IMG/VR virus record: IMGVR_UViG_3300017917_002605
Coordinates: 110,471 to 168,911 of that record
Strand: one strand, 5' to 3'
DNA: 58,441 nucleotides
DNA from: a virus
Both the position numbers and the translations under genes were made by a program. The notes under the pieces are model-generated. The model was not told where the DNA came from and ran no database searches. It saw only the letters and a list, made by a program, of their open reading frames with translations. This document shows, one piece after another, positions 1 through 6,979 of the stretch. The first letter of the stretch is position 1; each line of letters begins with the position of its first letter.

Positions 1-2448
1 AGACACCACTGTTGTATTGTTGATTACCACAGGTTGTGCAGCATCAGCCACTTGTTTTCTCTGTTGAACACCTACATCATTTGATGCGCTTGCAACCATG
101 GCACCAGTTGGTGATTTTTGTGGTGGTGGTTGTGGAACAGGTTGTGATTTACCAGTTGATACATCAGATGCCTTACCGTCTTTACCTGCGACCAAAACTG
201 GTTGACCAGGATTAACCGGGTTATCCGGTGTTGGCATAGAACCTGTAGCTTGTACGTGCCAATCTTCATTAGGAATAGGTCTGGTCAAACCAAACTTTTC
301 CAACCATCCAGTTGGCCTATCACGTGGTCCTGCAAGAGCGTTGATACCAGCTTCACCTTTTGAATTGATATCGATGGCTTCACCAGTTAAGTGTTTGCTG
401 CCTTTGCCTTTACCCAAAGGAGGCATAGGTTCAGCAACCATCTTTCTTGCTGCAGCTTCATTGCCACCAACTTGAGCAAGTTTTGCATCCCACAATTCTT
501 TTTGTTTTTCATTACTGCGTACACCAGAAGTAACCATCAACTTCTTACCGGTTTCTGCCTGGAACGCAGCCGCCATTTTGGCAACTCTTTCTTCAAGTGT
601 AGATTTGAAACTTGAAATATCTACACCAGAATTTTGTTTTGTCACAACAGCGGAAAGTGCAGGTACTTTACCGGAAGCAACTTCTTCTTTCTTTGGTGTT
701 GTTGGTGCAGCTGCCACTTGTGTGGTTGGAGGTTTCACTGCTTGTGGTGCAACCTGGCCCATACCTTCACGAATCAAAGCAACAACAGTTTGTGCTCTAC
801 CTTTAACTTGTTTGTACCACTGACTGTCAGTTAATTCATCGGCAGCCTTTTGGAAATCTCCAGCGGCAAGTGCAGCAGCGGTATTCTTAAATTTCTTATA
901 CCATCCACCACCCATGTTGAATGCAAGGTCGATAAGTGCAGCACGACCTTTTTCATTTGCTTTGTCGTACCCTGGTGATTTCTCGGCCATCTTTTTGTGA
1001 TGTTCATAGTCTTTTGCAAACAGAGCATCAATCTCCTGCATTGTGAATTCTCTATCCCATTCTGGAGGCAAAGTTTTTCCATCACCAATCAGATGACCAA
1101 CACCGACAGTCCATAGTCCAAGTGAATCTTTGTATGGTCTTGTTCTTACACCTTCGTGTTTTTTAATCATGGCCATAATGGACTTGTCATCACCACTAAT
1201 TGAAGGCGCCTTAACTTCTTTTGTTGGTGCCTCAGGTTTTCCAGCAGGAGGTTGTTGCTTAGTTACTTTTTCTGCCTTCTGTTTTTCCATTGTCTCACGC
1301 ATTTCTGCGGCAGACACTTCACCCAATCCCATACGAGAACGAACAATTTCATCTCGACCGGTGTATTGTGCGGCCTTTTCTTGTTCCTCGGTACGTCTAA
1401 TTTCTTCTTCGGTGTATTTCGGATACATCGATTTGGCTTGTTCTGCCGTAGGACCACCTTGTCCACCACGGCCGCCACCGGCACCAACTTCTTTTTGTTT
1501 TGCAGCTGCCGCAGCATCAATTTGTTGTTGTACTGTTTTGCCGGCATCTTTTGCGTCAACATTTATTTGTGATTTGCCTGTGTCTTTAGGCATTTCTAAT
1601 TCTTTTGGTTTTTCCTCTTTTCGCTTTATAGGAATACCAAAGAAATCCATTACACTATAGAACTTGTCTGAGACAAACTTACCAACTTCACCAAAGAAAC
1701 TCTTGACTGATTCCCATAGTGGTTCCAAAAATTCACCAACCTTACCAATAGCCTTGGTCAGGTTTTCTAAAGTGAAAGTATCTTTAATCCAGTCTAAGAA
1801 TTCACCAGACTTTTCTTTAATTGTTTCCCAAAGTTTGCCGCCAACAATCCATTCGTCCCATGCGGAAACGATATCGTCCCATAGACCTTGAAAGAATTCG
1901 ATGAGATTCAATGCACCATACACCGCAAGAATCAAAACGTTGGGGTCAGCCAACATCTTAATGAGACTTGCCCACCAAGTTGTTTTGGTTTTCACACCTT
2001 TAGTGGTGTCTTTCCTTGCGGTTGGTTTTCCTGCTTTATCGACACGTTCTGGTGTACGTTTCTCTTTTTCTTTTTCACGTTGAACACCTAGTGCTTCTTC
2101 TCTCTCGCCAGCTTTTAGAAAATGTGCATCTGCACCCAAAGCAGGTTTCAATTCTTTTGCTTTGGTTATCTTAACAATGTTCTGACGAATAACGTTGAAA
2201 TCACGACTCATGCCTGCCATGGTCATGGAGTTTTTAGTCAGAATCGATAAGTCGGCCGATATATCGGACAGATGTTCTTTTTGGTCAGACAGTTGTTCAG
2301 GTTGTTGTGTAACCTTTTCAACCTTGGTTTCTTTTGCGGGTTTCTTGCTACCAAATACTTTTTCACCAACTGCACCAAGAAGACTTGTTTTCTGTGTCTT
2401 CTTTTTTGGACCAAATTCTTTTTTGATTGCGTCAAGTAGTTTTGCCAT
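1..2448 (-). CDS. Tape-measure-like tail protein with GH24 lysozyme and M15 peptidase domains (C-terminus cut by window edge)
   Basis: 816 codons are visible and the frame runs off the left edge, so the C-terminus is missing. The start ATG overlaps the stop of the upstream gene (TAATG), implying translational coupling. Residues about 70-95 (NSMTMAGMSRD...) match a segment of the neighbouring 929-aa protein. A hydrophobic stretch lies at about 160-195. A T4-lysozyme-type (GH24) domain starts near residue 425 with the catalytic triad E432, D441 and T447 in T4 lysozyme spacing (E11, D20, T26). A second hydrolase domain at about 620-735 has the M15/VanY zinc pattern: H686 and D693 in KHLTGEAID, and H731 in DWH. 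A 'VINN' motif near the visible end resembles the neighbour's C-terminus. Inferred role: tail-lumen or hub protein that cuts glycan strands and peptide stems during infection. It could alternatively be a baseplate hub lysin unrelated to length control. Confidence 0.85.
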   Translation of the reverse strand, partial: MAKLLDAIKKEFGPKKKTQKTSLLGAVGEKVFGSKKPAKETKVEKVTQQPEQLSDQKEHLSDISADLSILTKNSMTMAGMSRDFNVIRQNIVKITKAKELKPALGADAHFLKAGEREEALGVQREKEKEKRTPERVDKAGKPTARKDTTKGVKTKTTWWASLIKMLADPNVLILAVYGALNLIEFFQGLWDDIVSAWDEWIVGGKLWETIKEKSGEFLDWIKDTFTLENLTKAIGKVGEFLEPLWESVKSFFGEVGKFVSDKFYSVMDFFGIPIKRKEEKPKELEMPKDTGKSQINVDAKDAGKTVQQQIDAAAAAKQKEVGAGGGRGGQGGPTAEQAKSMYPKYTEEEIRRTEEQEKAAQYTGRDEIVRSRMGLGEVSAAEMRETMEKQKAEKVTKQQPPAGKPEAPTKEVKAPSISGDDKSIMAMIKKHEGVRTRPYKDSLGLWTVGVGHLIGDGKTLPPEWDREFTMQEIDALFAKDYEHHKKMAEKSPGYDKANEKGRAALIDLAFNMGGGWYKKFKNTAAALAAGDFQKAADELTDSQWYKQVKGRAQTVVALIREGMGQVAPQAVKPPTTQVAAAPTTPKKEEVASGKVPALSAVVTKQNSGVDISSFKSTLEERVAKMAAAFQAETGKKLMVTSGVRSNEKQKELWDAKLAQVGGNEAAARKMVAEPMPPLGKGKGSKHLTGEAIDINSKGEAGINALAGPRDRPTGWLEKFGLTRPIPNEDWHVQATGSMPTPDNPVNPGQPVLVAGKDGKASDVSTGKSQPVPQPPPQKSPTGAMVASASNDVGVQQRKQVADAAQPVVINNTTVVS

Positions 2449-5237
2449 TATGCCATCACCATTTCAGCAAACACTTCATCAACAACGCTAGCAGTTTCTT
2501 TCTTATCATCTGTTGTTGCGGTGTTGTTAGATGTACTTGAGTTGTTATTGATAACTGTTGGTTCGTTAGCAGACATTTCTAGTCTTTGTTGTTCAGCAAC
2601 TTCAGCAGACGCCAAGGACAAATCAGAACCAGAAGTTGTCGAACTTGAAGGTTCGGAAACAGTTGATGGTGTTGCCGCAAGACTTGCCGCTGACGAACTT
2701 GCCCCACCGCCTGAAGTTGCCGAAGGTGCAGCAGAAGTAGATGATTCACCACCAGAAGGAATTATTGCCGCAGACTCTGGAACAGCGCTAGGAGAAGTTG
2801 CCGAGGTGGATGATGCGCCACCACCTTCTGTGAAGATACTTTTAGCATCCGTATCTGATAGGGAAGCCACCAGTGATGGTGCCTGGTCCATGCCCATGCC
2901 GGCGGCAACTTTACCGAAAGTCTTTAATTGTTCCGCAGGAGTTTTTGCGGCACCCATTTCTGCACCGGCAGATTCCATTGCTTGTCTTGTTGGACCACCT
3001 GTACCCATACCAAAAAGTTTCGTCAGTCTGTCATTAAGATTTGCAGCTGCGCCTTTTTGTTCTGGTGTTTGTGCTACCTGTTGTTCCAATTCTTTAGAAA
3101 TGGTATTCACAGGCACAGGTTTTTCACCGGCCTTTGCCAATGTTTGAACACGCATTCTTTCGAAGTCACCAGCAGCAATCAGAGCAGTTGTGATATCGTT
3201 ATCCATTTCTGCAATCTTTTCTGGTGGTGCACCGTCAGCAATTGCTTTCTCTTTTGCTTTTTTAATTTTTCTAACAAGACTTATGGTTTCATCACGTTTC
3301 TTTTCATAGTAAGATGCTTGTTCAACCAAAGACTTGTCTTTTTCACCAACAAGGTCCATCTTTGTTGGCATCTTTTGGTCTGCTGCCGCAACAGCTTCTG
3401 TAGATTGTTTTGTTGGTGTTTGTTCTTGTTCTTTACCAATATCTGCTGGTGTTGCCGGTGTTGTTTTCTCTGGTTTAGATTCTGTCGATTCTTTTTTGGT
3501 GGCCGCATCCATTGCTTTATCAGCAGCTGCCGAAGGAGAAACTTCTTTCTTCTCTGGTTGTGCAGAAACTTCAGGTGCCGCAGATTTTGGATTAGATTTG
3601 AATGGATACCAAGGACCAATACTTCCTAATTCCCATGGTCCTTTCTTAACTTCCATGCCATCAAAGATGGTTATTCTTTTGCCACCCAACAAAGCAGGCA
3701 AATCAACTGAAATTGCTGGTATAGTAAAACCTATTGCGGGTATTGTTGGCAGTTTTATTTCAGGAATACCAACGTTGTTCACCACCCAATCTTTAATTGT
3801 GGTAACAACTTTACTGATACTATCAATCACAGGGTTGATGTACTCACCAACCGTATTGAACAGTGTTCTTATTGATTCTTTATCGAATAAACCAAAGGTT
3901 AGGAAATCAACAATACCACCAAGGCCTGCAATGATTGCTTCTTTTAGGTCTCCCGTTTCTTGCCATGCTTTCCATCCGTCAATCAGACCATTGACCAACG
4001 AGGCAACCAATGTACCAATAACGAATACTTTACCTAAAACTTTTAGTAGGTTGGATGGTTTAAAGATGAATCGTAAAGCTTTGAATAGACCATCTTTCAC
4101 CCAATTGATAATGGTACCAATGAAGTCTTTGATGTTGAAACCACCACCATCAGAAGATTTTTCTGAACCTTTAATTGGTGATGTGTTTGATTTTTCTTTA
4201 CTCTTTAATTTTGCACGTTCAGCTTCTAACGCAGCTTCACGTTCATCCGCCTTCAAGAAATACATGTCGGCACCGGTCGCAGCTTTCTTAGAATCGTCTT
4301 TGCCTTCGACCTTGCTTTTGCCTTTCTCTAATACACTGTTGGTAATTTTGATTACGTTCTGACGAATGACATTAATATCTCTGCTCATTCCAGCCCAAGT
4401 CATTGAGTTCTTGGCTAAAATGGAAATGTCATTTCTAATGTCACCTAATTCTTCACCACCGATGCCTTCAGGTGCAGGCGAAACAGAACTGGTCATATCG
4501 CCAGGTTGTTTTAGTGCATTGTATCCTTTACCGAATACTTTCTCACCAACAGCGCCCATCAGTCCAGAACCAAATGCGTTTCTTGGGTCCAGTTTTTCTT
4601 TTAGTCGTTCTTTTGTTGCAACTGCTATACCACCAAAAGTGCCGGCGCCTTCATCGGTTGCTTTTCTATACAGTTGTGCAAGTCTGGTTCCTGAACCGTA
4701 ATCTTTTCTACCAGAAGAAACGTCAGCGCCAGATTTAACACGGTCACTTTCTTTTTTCTGCTTTTGTTCCTCATTCTTTACAGTCTGAGGTTCTTCTGTT
4801 GGTTCAGGTGCAGTTGATTTTTGTTTTTCACGTTCAATCTTTTCTTTACGTGCTTCTAGTGCGGAACCACGTAGCGGTTTACCTATTTTGTCAAGGTATT
4901 CCGGTGGAACAACTTCTTCTGGCACAGGTTCCTGTTTTACAAGTTCCAATGCCTTCGATGTTACTGCTTTTTCAGCAGCATCAAATGCGGCCATTTCTTG
5001 AGGCGTTGTACCTAAGATATCCGCTTCAGATTTTTGAACTAATGCTTGTTGTTCTGCTTCCGTTACTTCTTCTTTAGGAGAAAGTAGAGCATTCAGTTTT
5101 TCAGCAATTTCTTTCTTTGCAGAACGACCGGCTTTTCCTGTTTTAGGATTAACTACCGCCCATGCGGCACCCATCCAACGATATGTGGTGCCTTCAAAGG
5201 TCACTTCAGCGTTTAGTTCTGGTTTAAAATCTGCCAT
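2448..5237 (-). CDS. Tape-measure-like tail protein, candidate gp29 analogue
   Basis: 929 aa, starting at an ATG that overlaps the stop of the frameshift extension upstream (TAATG). The protein is rich in Ala, Lys, Glu, Ser and Thr, has long charged helical stretches and a hydrophobic region at about 390-450 (LLKVLGKVFVIGTLVASLVN), a pattern common in tape-measure proteins. Residues about 268-295 (NSMTWAGMSRDINVIRQN) match the downstream lysozyme-bearing protein. The C-terminal 150 residues are low-complexity Ser/Ala/Gly/Thr followed by a 'VINNNS' motif. Position directly after a gp26-like chaperone with a frameshift extension is the classic place for a tape measure. T4 gp29 is about 590 aa, and no direct similarity to it is visible to me, so the tape-measure call rests on context and composition. 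Confidence 0.65.
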   Translation of the reverse strand: MADFKPELNAEVTFEGTTYRWMGAAWAVVNPKTGKAGRSAKKEIAEKLNALLSPKEEVTEAEQQALVQKSEADILGTTPQEMAAFDAAEKAVTSKALELVKQEPVPEEVVPPEYLDKIGKPLRGSALEARKEKIEREKQKSTAPEPTEEPQTVKNEEQKQKKESDRVKSGADVSSGRKDYGSGTRLAQLYRKATDEGAGTFGGIAVATKERLKEKLDPRNAFGSGLMGAVGEKVFGKGYNALKQPGDMTSSVSPAPEGIGGEELGDIRNDISILAKNSMTWAGMSRDINVIRQNVIKITNSVLEKGKSKVEGKDDSKKAATGADMYFLKADEREAALEAERAKLKSKEKSNTSPIKGSEKSSDGGGFNIKDFIGTIINWVKDGLFKALRFIFKPSNLLKVLGKVFVIGTLVASLVNGLIDGWKAWQETGDLKEAIIAGLGGIVDFLTFGLFDKESIRTLFNTVGEYINPVIDSISKVVTTIKDWVVNNVGIPEIKLPTIPAIGFTIPAISVDLPALLGGKRITIFDGMEVKKGPWELGSIGPWYPFKSNPKSAAPEVSAQPEKKEVSPSAAADKAMDAATKKESTESKPEKTTPATPADIGKEQEQTPTKQSTEAVAAADQKMPTKMDLVGEKDKSLVEQASYYEKKRDETISLVRKIKKAKEKAIADGAPPEKIAEMDNDITTALIAAGDFERMRVQTLAKAGEKPVPVNTISKELEQQVAQTPEQKGAAANLNDRLTKLFGMGTGGPTRQAMESAGAEMGAAKTPAEQLKTFGKVAAGMGMDQAPSLVASLSDTDAKSIFTEGGGASSTSATSPSAVPESAAIIPSGGESSTSAAPSATSGGGASSSAASLAATPSTVSEPSSSTTSGSDLSLASAEVAEQQRLEMSANEPTVINNNSSTSNNTATTDDKKETASVVDEVFAEMVMA

Positions 5238-5443
5238 TATCGTCTAGACTTTGCTGTTTGTTTTTGTAACTGAATTCTCTCTTTTTCTTCCTGAAGATAT
5301 TTCACTAATAACTCTATGTAAATTGTACGTTCCCAAGGTAACATATTTTCCAATTCTGTCAGACTATACTTGTGATGTTGCATCAGAGCAAAATTGGTTT
5401 GATAGTAATTACTCAGAGTATCATAACGGAAGCTTATACGAAA
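5237..5443 (-). CDS. -1 frameshift extension of the gp26-like chaperone (68 codons)
   Basis: This open frame lies -1 relative to gene 26 and begins at the slippery site inside its last codons. It has no ATG, GTG or TTG until M21 of the extension (5381-5383), and no Shine-Dalgarno precedes that ATG. Read through from gene 26 it adds 68 residues, ending just before the 929-aa tape-measure-like gene with a TAATG overlap. It contains MQHHKYSLTELENMLPWER, resembling the short helical chaperone domains (lambda T, P2 E types) made by frameshifting upstream of tape-measure genes. The predicted fusion is 310 aa. The open frame and slippery site are seen directly; frameshifting is inferred. Confidence 0.7.
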   Translation of the reverse strand, partial: FRISFRYDTLSNYYQTNFALMQHHKYSLTELENMLPWERTIYIELLVKYLQEEKERIQLQKQTAKSRR

Positions 5444-6168
5444 AAATTTTGCAGTCCTTTAATTGTAATCTTTTCTTCATAACCACACTTTGGACACTTG
5501 AACGGAACGTCTGCCTTAATTTCAGGCATAGTGTCAAAAAATTGTTTGATTTTCTCCAAGTCTTTTTGTTGGAGACTATCAATGAATTCTTCTAGTTCTT
5601 CACGTGTGTTGTCTTTTGCATAGTAAATGTTATCACTGTCATACACGTAGTCCAAACAATCAATTAGAACGTTCAAAAGAATCTCATCTTCTGTCTTGTT
5701 CTCATATTTTTCTGCCATTTCAAATGTTGGGTATTTTAAAACAATACCTAGATTTGGTGTCAGTTGAATCTTGTTTGTGTGTTCAGGATTCATCGTTGGT
5801 TCAATCTTTGTCAGATTCAAATCATATTCAAAGATACCAATACATTTCTTTTCTTCACCAGTTTCTTCATCTTTAACGTTGTTGTTGCACTTATAACGCA
5901 TTTCAACAACTTCTTCAACAGACCTTGCACGTAGATTCATAAACAAGTATTCAAGGTCAAAAGTTGGAAGACTTTCGATATTGATATCATCCAGAATACA
6001 GTTCTTTAGAACCTGACGAATGGTTTGAATCGTTTCTTTGGTGTCATCTGATTGTGACGCCATCATAAACAACTTTTGTTCCTTTACTAAGAAAGGACGG
6101 AATTTAATTTTCTTCTTGTTTGAAGGCAAGGTCACTTCATACACAGGCACATCAAGTTTAGGTAACAT
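5434..6168 (-). CDS. 26: gp26-like baseplate hub assembly / tail chaperone protein
   Basis: 244 aa (T4 gp26 is 208), in the T4 base-plate protein family (gp26/gp51 type). It starts at an ATG seven bases after GGAG. The N-terminus (MLPKLDVPVYEVTLPSNKKK) is the typical family opening. Four cysteines, C94, C109, C225 and C228 (the last two as CPKC), could form a zinc site. The last residues (KGLQNFFV) coincide with a slippery heptamer, and a -1 frame stays open to the next gene. In T4 gp26 is needed for hub assembly; here the position immediately before the tape-measure-like gene suggests a tail assembly chaperone role. Confidence 0.82.
   Translation of the reverse strand: MLPKLDVPVYEVTLPSNKKKIKFRPFLVKEQKLFMMASQSDDTKETIQTIRQVLKNCILDDINIESLPTFDLEYLFMNLRARSVEEVVEMRYKCNNNVKDEETGEEKKCIGIFEYDLNLTKIEPTMNPEHTNKIQLTPNLGIVLKYPTFEMAEKYENKTEDEILLNVLIDCLDYVYDSDNIYYAKDNTREELEEFIDSLQQKDLEKIKQFFDTMPEIKADVPFKCPKCGYEEKITIKGLQNFFV
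5443..5449 (-). promoter_or_regulatory. Slippery heptamer A_AAT_TTT for -1 ribosomal frameshifting
   Basis: In the gene 26 frame the codons are CAA AAT TTT TTC GTA TAA. The heptamer A_AAT_TTT fits X_XXY_YYZ with X=A, Y=T, Z=T. A -1 slip re-pairs both tRNAs on AAA TTT and enters the 68-codon extension two codons before the zero-frame stop region ends. I see no clear stimulatory hairpin downstream by eye. Confidence 0.65.
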
Positions 6169-6184
6169 AATTTCTCCAAATTAA

Positions 6185-6979
6185 TTAAAATAATATTCTA
6201 TTGAATGCACGACCAACGGTACCACCGATGGTGTTTCCAAACAACTGAGAACCTTTCGATAGTAGATTGTTGGCAATAGAACCTCCAAAGATAGAAGTTG
6301 CTGCGGCACCCAAATCGTATCCACCTTTGTAAACCACTTTATAATTGGTATACGCAAATGATATAGACAAACGATGGAAACCTTCTTCACCCCAACTCAA
6401 TGGTTGAGGAGAGATACCTACTGGAAAAGCTTCAATTAATTCCACAGCATAAATTTGTTTGATAAACTCATCATACTGAATAATCTTAATATTAGTTAGG
6501 TAACGGGTTTCGTTATCTGCTGGAAATCTAACGTTCCAGGTATCGGATGGGTGAATGCATTCCATCCATTGGTCAAACAATTTTCTTTCGTAAAATTCAT
6601 TGGTACACAAGAACGTAAGATTGATATCGTTGAATTGTGACGCATATGGAATTTTACTGATTGGTCCGTAAATTTTACGGTCAGCAGTCTGTAGTGTTCT
6701 ACCAGGCAATTCAGCAGCTTCACACTGTAATGCCAAATAACGTGACATTGCAGGATTGGAAGATGTAGATGCTGGATTTGCACCTAATCCACCAAAGATG
6801 GAGTTGGTAATATCTGTAACTGCGCCAGTCACGGAACCAATGATGTTGTCGATAACTGAGTTTCCAACAAATTTGTTTACTGCCGATGGAATGGGCAAGA
6901 CCACCTCAAAACGGTTGTTTTTGGCAAAACCGTCTTTGATTTTGGCATTAGCCAAGAATTCATTTGGTGAAAATGGCAT
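6185..6979 (-). CDS. 54: Tail-tube-fold baseplate protein, gp54-like tube initiator
   Basis: 264 aa from the ATG that overlaps the upstream stop (TAATG); a longer frame to 7066 runs back inside the preceding gene and is unlikely. It carries the gp19-superfamily pattern: an early ligand strand (NRFEVVLPIP), CEAAELPGRTL, a Tyr-Gly-Pro strand and LFDQWMECI. A Gly/Ala/Ser-rich insertion sits at about residues 35-75. The C-terminus is also Gly-rich and hydrophobic. In T4, gp54 sits with gp48 on the baseplate and nucleates the tail tube; gp48 is encoded nearby on the other strand. The family is well supported, the specific gp54 role less so. Confidence 0.7.
   Translation of the reverse strand: MPFSPNEFLANAKIKDGFAKNNRFEVVLPIPSAVNKFVGNSVIDNIIGSVTGAVTDITNSIFGGLGANPASTSSNPAMSRYLALQCEAAELPGRTLQTADRKIYGPISKIPYASQFNDINLTFLCTNEFYERKLFDQWMECIHPSDTWNVRFPADNETRYLTNIKIIQYDEFIKQIYAVELIEAFPVGISPQPLSWGEEGFHRLSISFAYTNYKVVYKGGYDLGAAATSIFGGSIANNLLSKGSQLFGNTIGGTVGRAFNRILF

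Follow-up and report, generated by a model that had tools for sequence, protein, structure and literature searches.

The window, a stretch of 58,441 nucleotides lying in a 168,911-base IMG/VR virus record, contains a tail gene cluster on its minus strand in which gp26 sits between a tail-tube-like gene and a gene encoding 929 amino acids. The features considered here, in the order in which they are transcribed, are:

6185–6979, minus strand: tail-tube-like gene upstream of gp26 (phrog_45, tail tube, E 2.4e-33)
5434–6168, minus strand: gp26, 244 aa, putative short form of the chaperone (TAC-N) (PF12322, E 6.9e-63; phrog_150, E 2.7e-68)
5455–5460, minus strand: Shine-Dalgarno (SD)-like AAAGGA, candidate frameshift stimulator, 8 nt upstream of the conserved heptamer
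5443–5449, minus strand: A_AAT_TTT, the heptamer chosen in the initial annotation, overlapping T_TTT_TTC
5440–5446, minus strand: conserved slippery heptamer T_TTT_TTC
5434–5436, minus strand: zero-frame stop codon TAA of gp26, one codon past T_TTT_TTC
5240–5443, minus strand: −1 frame extension (TAC-C, gp51-like), adding about 67 residues beyond the slip (phrog_634, E 8.9e-27)
2448–5237, minus strand: 929-aa gene, probably the tape measure protein, assigned by position and length

The 3′ end of gp26 reads ...CAA AAT TTT TTC GTA TAA. From 5458, the −1 frame runs uninterrupted to a stop codon at 5239–5237, where it overlaps the start of the 929-aa open reading frame as TAATG. Joining it to gp26 gives a predicted fusion of 310 aa; the initial annotation had described this open frame, its overlap, and the length of the fusion, and all three are confirmed in the window. 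The first ATG of the −1 frame is found at 5383, 20 codons into the extension. The extension matches the phrog_634 family, named "baseplate hub assembly catalyst," and also the end of phrog_150. For the 929-aa gene, PHROGs and NCBIfam gave no informative family match and Pfam gave a weak one; a search of the 168,911-base record for a T4 gp29-like tape measure, run without a positive control, found none. The position and size of this gene indicate that it is probably the tape measure protein. The lineage is uncultivated, and its gp26 shares at most about 41% identity with the gp26 of isolates.

The AF2 model of gp26 has a pLDDT of 88.5. The four best matches in a fold comparison of this model, aligned over its residues 1–93, were 3fgx (Z 8.0), 2ob9 (Z 7.3), 3klu (YqbN; Z 7.0), and 5ir0 (Z 6.1), with the following match at Z 2.9. 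The 2ob9 entry is the HK97 tail assembly chaperone, and we take 3fgx and 3klu to be relatives of tail assembly chaperones. A Foldseek search of the model against the PDB gave no significant match (2ob9, E 0.76), and a PDB sequence search gave nothing useful. Taken alone, Z scores of 6.1–8.0 are modest, and the weight lies on the agreement of protein identity, gene position, and locus architecture.

A comparison with T4 bears on both parts of the locus. The PF12322 domain covers residues 1–201 of T4-type gp51 (E 4.3e-55), and the last 50 residues of that protein match the extension of the phage studied here. With hhalign, this fusion of a gp26-like domain and the extension is supported at 97.2% and 96.5%, the latter value being for the extension against residues 200–250. 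T4 gp26 and gp51 are thus both gp26-like, and gp51 additionally bears the extension. T4-type gp26 has no T_TTT_TTN, and gene 25 occupies its −1 frame. Whereas the long form in T4 is a separate, divergent gene 51, the record of this phage contains no separate gene 51. Judged from these domain matches, T4 gp51 proves to be a genetic fusion that would stand in for the frameshift. The fold comparison and the fused T4 equivalent both lend support to the earlier suggestion that gp26 is a chaperone resembling lambda G. The record, which is possibly incomplete, has one match to PF12322 and one to phrog_634; a long form built from these two domains is possible only if the two frames are joined.

To place the slip site in a wider context, gp26 loci were gathered from viral contigs and phage records, giving 237 usable loci and, from these, 106 non-redundant ones. 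The set takes in cyanophages, Melnitz-type phages, phiM12, phiM9, KVP40, Aeromonas 65, and Moby, and counts drawn from it are non-independent because its members are related; T4-type and Ackermannviridae gp26 were examined apart from it. All 106 loci carry T_TTT_TTN in the gp26 frame 0–2 codons ahead of the gp26 stop, with a spacing of one codon in 91, none in 14, and two in 1. The −1 frame is open for 54–66 codons beyond that stop at every locus, and the +1 frame is shut within 3–45 codons. Stops in the −1 frame of relatives had been named as evidence that would count against a frameshift, and none occurs before the extension. The codon preceding TTT is AGT in 40 loci, AAT in 35, TCT in 22, GAT in 7, and GCT in 2. 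With five differing codons at this position, it is the wobble T that is invariant (106 found versus 75 expected from the codon use of the same genes) and not A_AAT_TTT. The initial annotation, which had placed the slip at A_AAT_TTT and expected both heptamer and −1 frame to hold across relatives, was thus right about a slippery heptamer near the gp26 end and about the −1 frame, but the invariant heptamer is T_TTT_TTN.

Within the window itself, finding such a heptamer would be only slightly surprising: TTTTTTCGNNTRA is present once, against an expectation of 0.27. Among 52 non-overlapping open reading frames of at least 100 aa, gp26 alone combines a heptamer within the final 15 codons with an extended −1 opening that is more than the next gene's own start. 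At about 0.7% of shuffled positions (129/19414), a random frame runs for 65 codons without a stop. It is the conservation of the arrangement across the 106 relatives that rules out chance.

Variants of the site were observed in several related phages. In Ackermannviridae (L269–L283, L091, and L098), gp26 has no T_TTT_TTN and ends ATT TTC ATT TAA; the −1 frame of these loci is open for 53 codons and encodes a related C-terminal domain (YS..E..MPWHL). Slippage in these phages is possibly T7-like or involves a single tRNA. In Vibrio phage K351 (L090, near position 3172), gp26 ends CTT TTC AAG TAA TGG, a variant slip site, with a −1 frame open for 58 codons and a similar C-terminal domain. One locus nearly identical to that of Moby (L262, near position 1755) is one T short at the slip site, with five in place of six, so that the gp26 frame is broken; this is either a sequencing error or a real variant.

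Selection on the extension was estimated within the window clade, using 64 distinct alleles. Between the gp26 stop and the first ATG, the 15 codons have a dN/dS of 0.06 in the −1 frame, as against 2.7 in frame 0 and 1.0 in frame +1 for the same bases. After the first ATG, the value in the −1 frame is 0.08. Purifying selection therefore acts on the −1 frame of the extension even upstream of any ATG. With no start codon of its own, a segment selected in this way can be translated only by way of gp26.

Alternatively, the extension could be a small independent gene, gp51, whose translation begins by termination-reinitiation or at a start codon of its own. Such a gene is annotated in S-PM2, P-SSM2, phiM12, Melnitz, KVP40, Moby, and phiM9, and in KVP40, Moby, and phiM9 TAATG or TGATG lies directly at the gp26 stop. 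An ATG ahead of the conserved motif of the extension is present in 38 of the 106 relatives, at codon index 4 in 28 of these, and it is possible that relatives with an ATG near the stop make a free small gp51. However, 50 of the 106 loci contain no ATG, GTG, or TTG between the heptamer and the conserved motif, and no ATG was found ahead of the motif in the window clade, where the selected codons precede any start. The internal ATGs have weak SD sequences (mean −1.4 kcal/mol versus −4.7 kcal/mol at gp26 starts), and a separate gene leaves the invariant T_TTT_TTN unexplained. We consider a separate gp51 very improbable and, on account of the start-less selected codons and the invariant heptamer, reject it for this lineage; the observation in the initial annotation that the head of the extension has neither a start codon nor a ribosome binding site holds here.

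Slippage could also take place at the level of transcription, with mRNAs that have gained or lost bases on the T6 run fusing the two frames, and the six-T run is indeed common to all relatives. Six T residues are short for polymerase slippage, however, and the run is phased for tandem tRNA slippage, with NNT_TTT_TTN at every locus. An SD-like element and a nearby stop are features of ribosomal frameshifting, and we regard transcriptional slippage as very improbable. If the ribosome is what slips, it might do so on A_AAT_TTT rather than on T_TTT_TTC. The former occurs in the window, but it is missing from 71 of the 106 relatives, all of which keep T_TTT_TTN. We reject A_AAT_TTT as the conserved site and give it a small chance of being the one used; both heptamers could contribute in the window.

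We estimate at roughly 93% the probability that gp26 and its extension form a chaperone pair of the lambda G/GT type, a prediction drawn from sequence, in which −1 frameshifting gives the long form. In this T4-like phage, gp26 itself would serve as the short tail assembly chaperone (TAC-N). Near its end, tRNA-Phe would occupy the P and A sites on U_UUU_UUC, and a fraction of ribosomes would slip by −1, bypass the UAA one codon on, and read about 67 further codons. The product would be the 310-aa long form (TAC-NC), with a C-terminal domain predicted to bind the probable tape measure protein of the following gene. Sequence establishes the slip site, the open frame, the selection on start-less codons, the presence of each domain once in the record, and the homology to T4 gp51; that ribosomes slip during infection, how often they do so, and that the products act as chaperones are inferred.

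The sequences around the heptamer suggest how slippage may be stimulated. Across the loci, the stretch between 24 and 4 nt upstream pairs more strongly with the anti-SD sequence than synonymous recodings do (−6.47 versus −5.10 kcal/mol; Wilcoxon 5e-12, with loci taken as independent); in the window, this corresponds to AAAGGA at 5460–5455. No comparable excess was found in eight other stretches of gp26 or in control windows. Downstream RNA structure gave no consistent signal in the window clade (mean z −0.5; consensus fold nearly empty). In S-PM2-type loci, a downstream hairpin has a mean z of about −2.5, a signal that may include coding constraint, and one of its pairs covaries (C-G to U-A in 6/15). 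This 11-bp hairpin (L001 and L099–L119) lies just past the gp26 stop, starting about 10 nt after the heptamer, and could be a stimulator. With a hairpin in S-PM2-type loci and none that is consistent in the window clade, candidate downstream stimulators differ among clades. We tentatively suggest, at somewhat less than even odds, a conserved device in three parts (an SD-like element 8 nt upstream, U_UUU_UUN, and a stop 0–1 codon downstream) to which some cyanophage clades have added hairpins and which T4 has replaced by duplication and fusion.

The arrangement resembles two well known systems in its architecture. In lambda, G/GT are a short and a long chaperone made from one gene by a −1 slip just ahead of the tape measure gene; the lambda slip site is G_GGA_AAG, whereas this phage has T_TTT_TTC with a stop one codon on. 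P2, a myovirus, makes the short/long pair E/E+E′ by a −1 slip, and the P2 site, T_TTT_TTG, is close to the T_TTT_TTC found here.

Frameshifting is reportedly conserved in several groups of T4-like phages, with T4 using genes 26 and 51. The chaperones of T4-like phages (gp26/gp51) were identified by Vladimirov, Gautam and Davidson (Virology 2022, pmid 34826709). The PRFect paper cites that study for some T4-like phages having one short and one fused gene, and the paper on phage Adele (PMC12846349) cites it for poly-T slippery sequences in T4-like TAC-N genes. Because the T4-like chaperones and the poly-T slip sites are there credited to Vladimirov et al. (2022), the core of our claim is prior art, and the idea, of which the initial annotation knew no description for T4-type gp26, is not new for T4-like phages. 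The phage examined here is an added member of the known T4-like chaperone system. Possibly undescribed so far are the SD-like stimulator and the hairpins seen in particular clades. A −1 frameshift is also present in the chaperone locus of Vandenendeviridae and Andersonviridae, at a conserved GTTTTT in phage Adele, where the extension was misannotated as a hypothetical gene (PMC12846349), but this locus belongs to other phage families.

In the records of S-PM2, P-SSM2, phiM12, KVP40, Moby, and others, the small gp51 open reading frame is annotated as an independent gene or omitted, and a joined gp26–gp51 frameshift product is marked in none of the phage records examined. The reading of gp26 and its extension as a frameshifted chaperone pair would give a new meaning to the small open reading frame called "gp51 baseplate hub assembly catalyst" in many cyanophages, which would be the last part of the long chaperone and not a catalyst in its own right. 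This reading would also set up an evolutionary contrast within one phage group, between a frameshift and a duplicated fusion gene, and a site this sharply conserved would offer a testing ground for frameshift signals.
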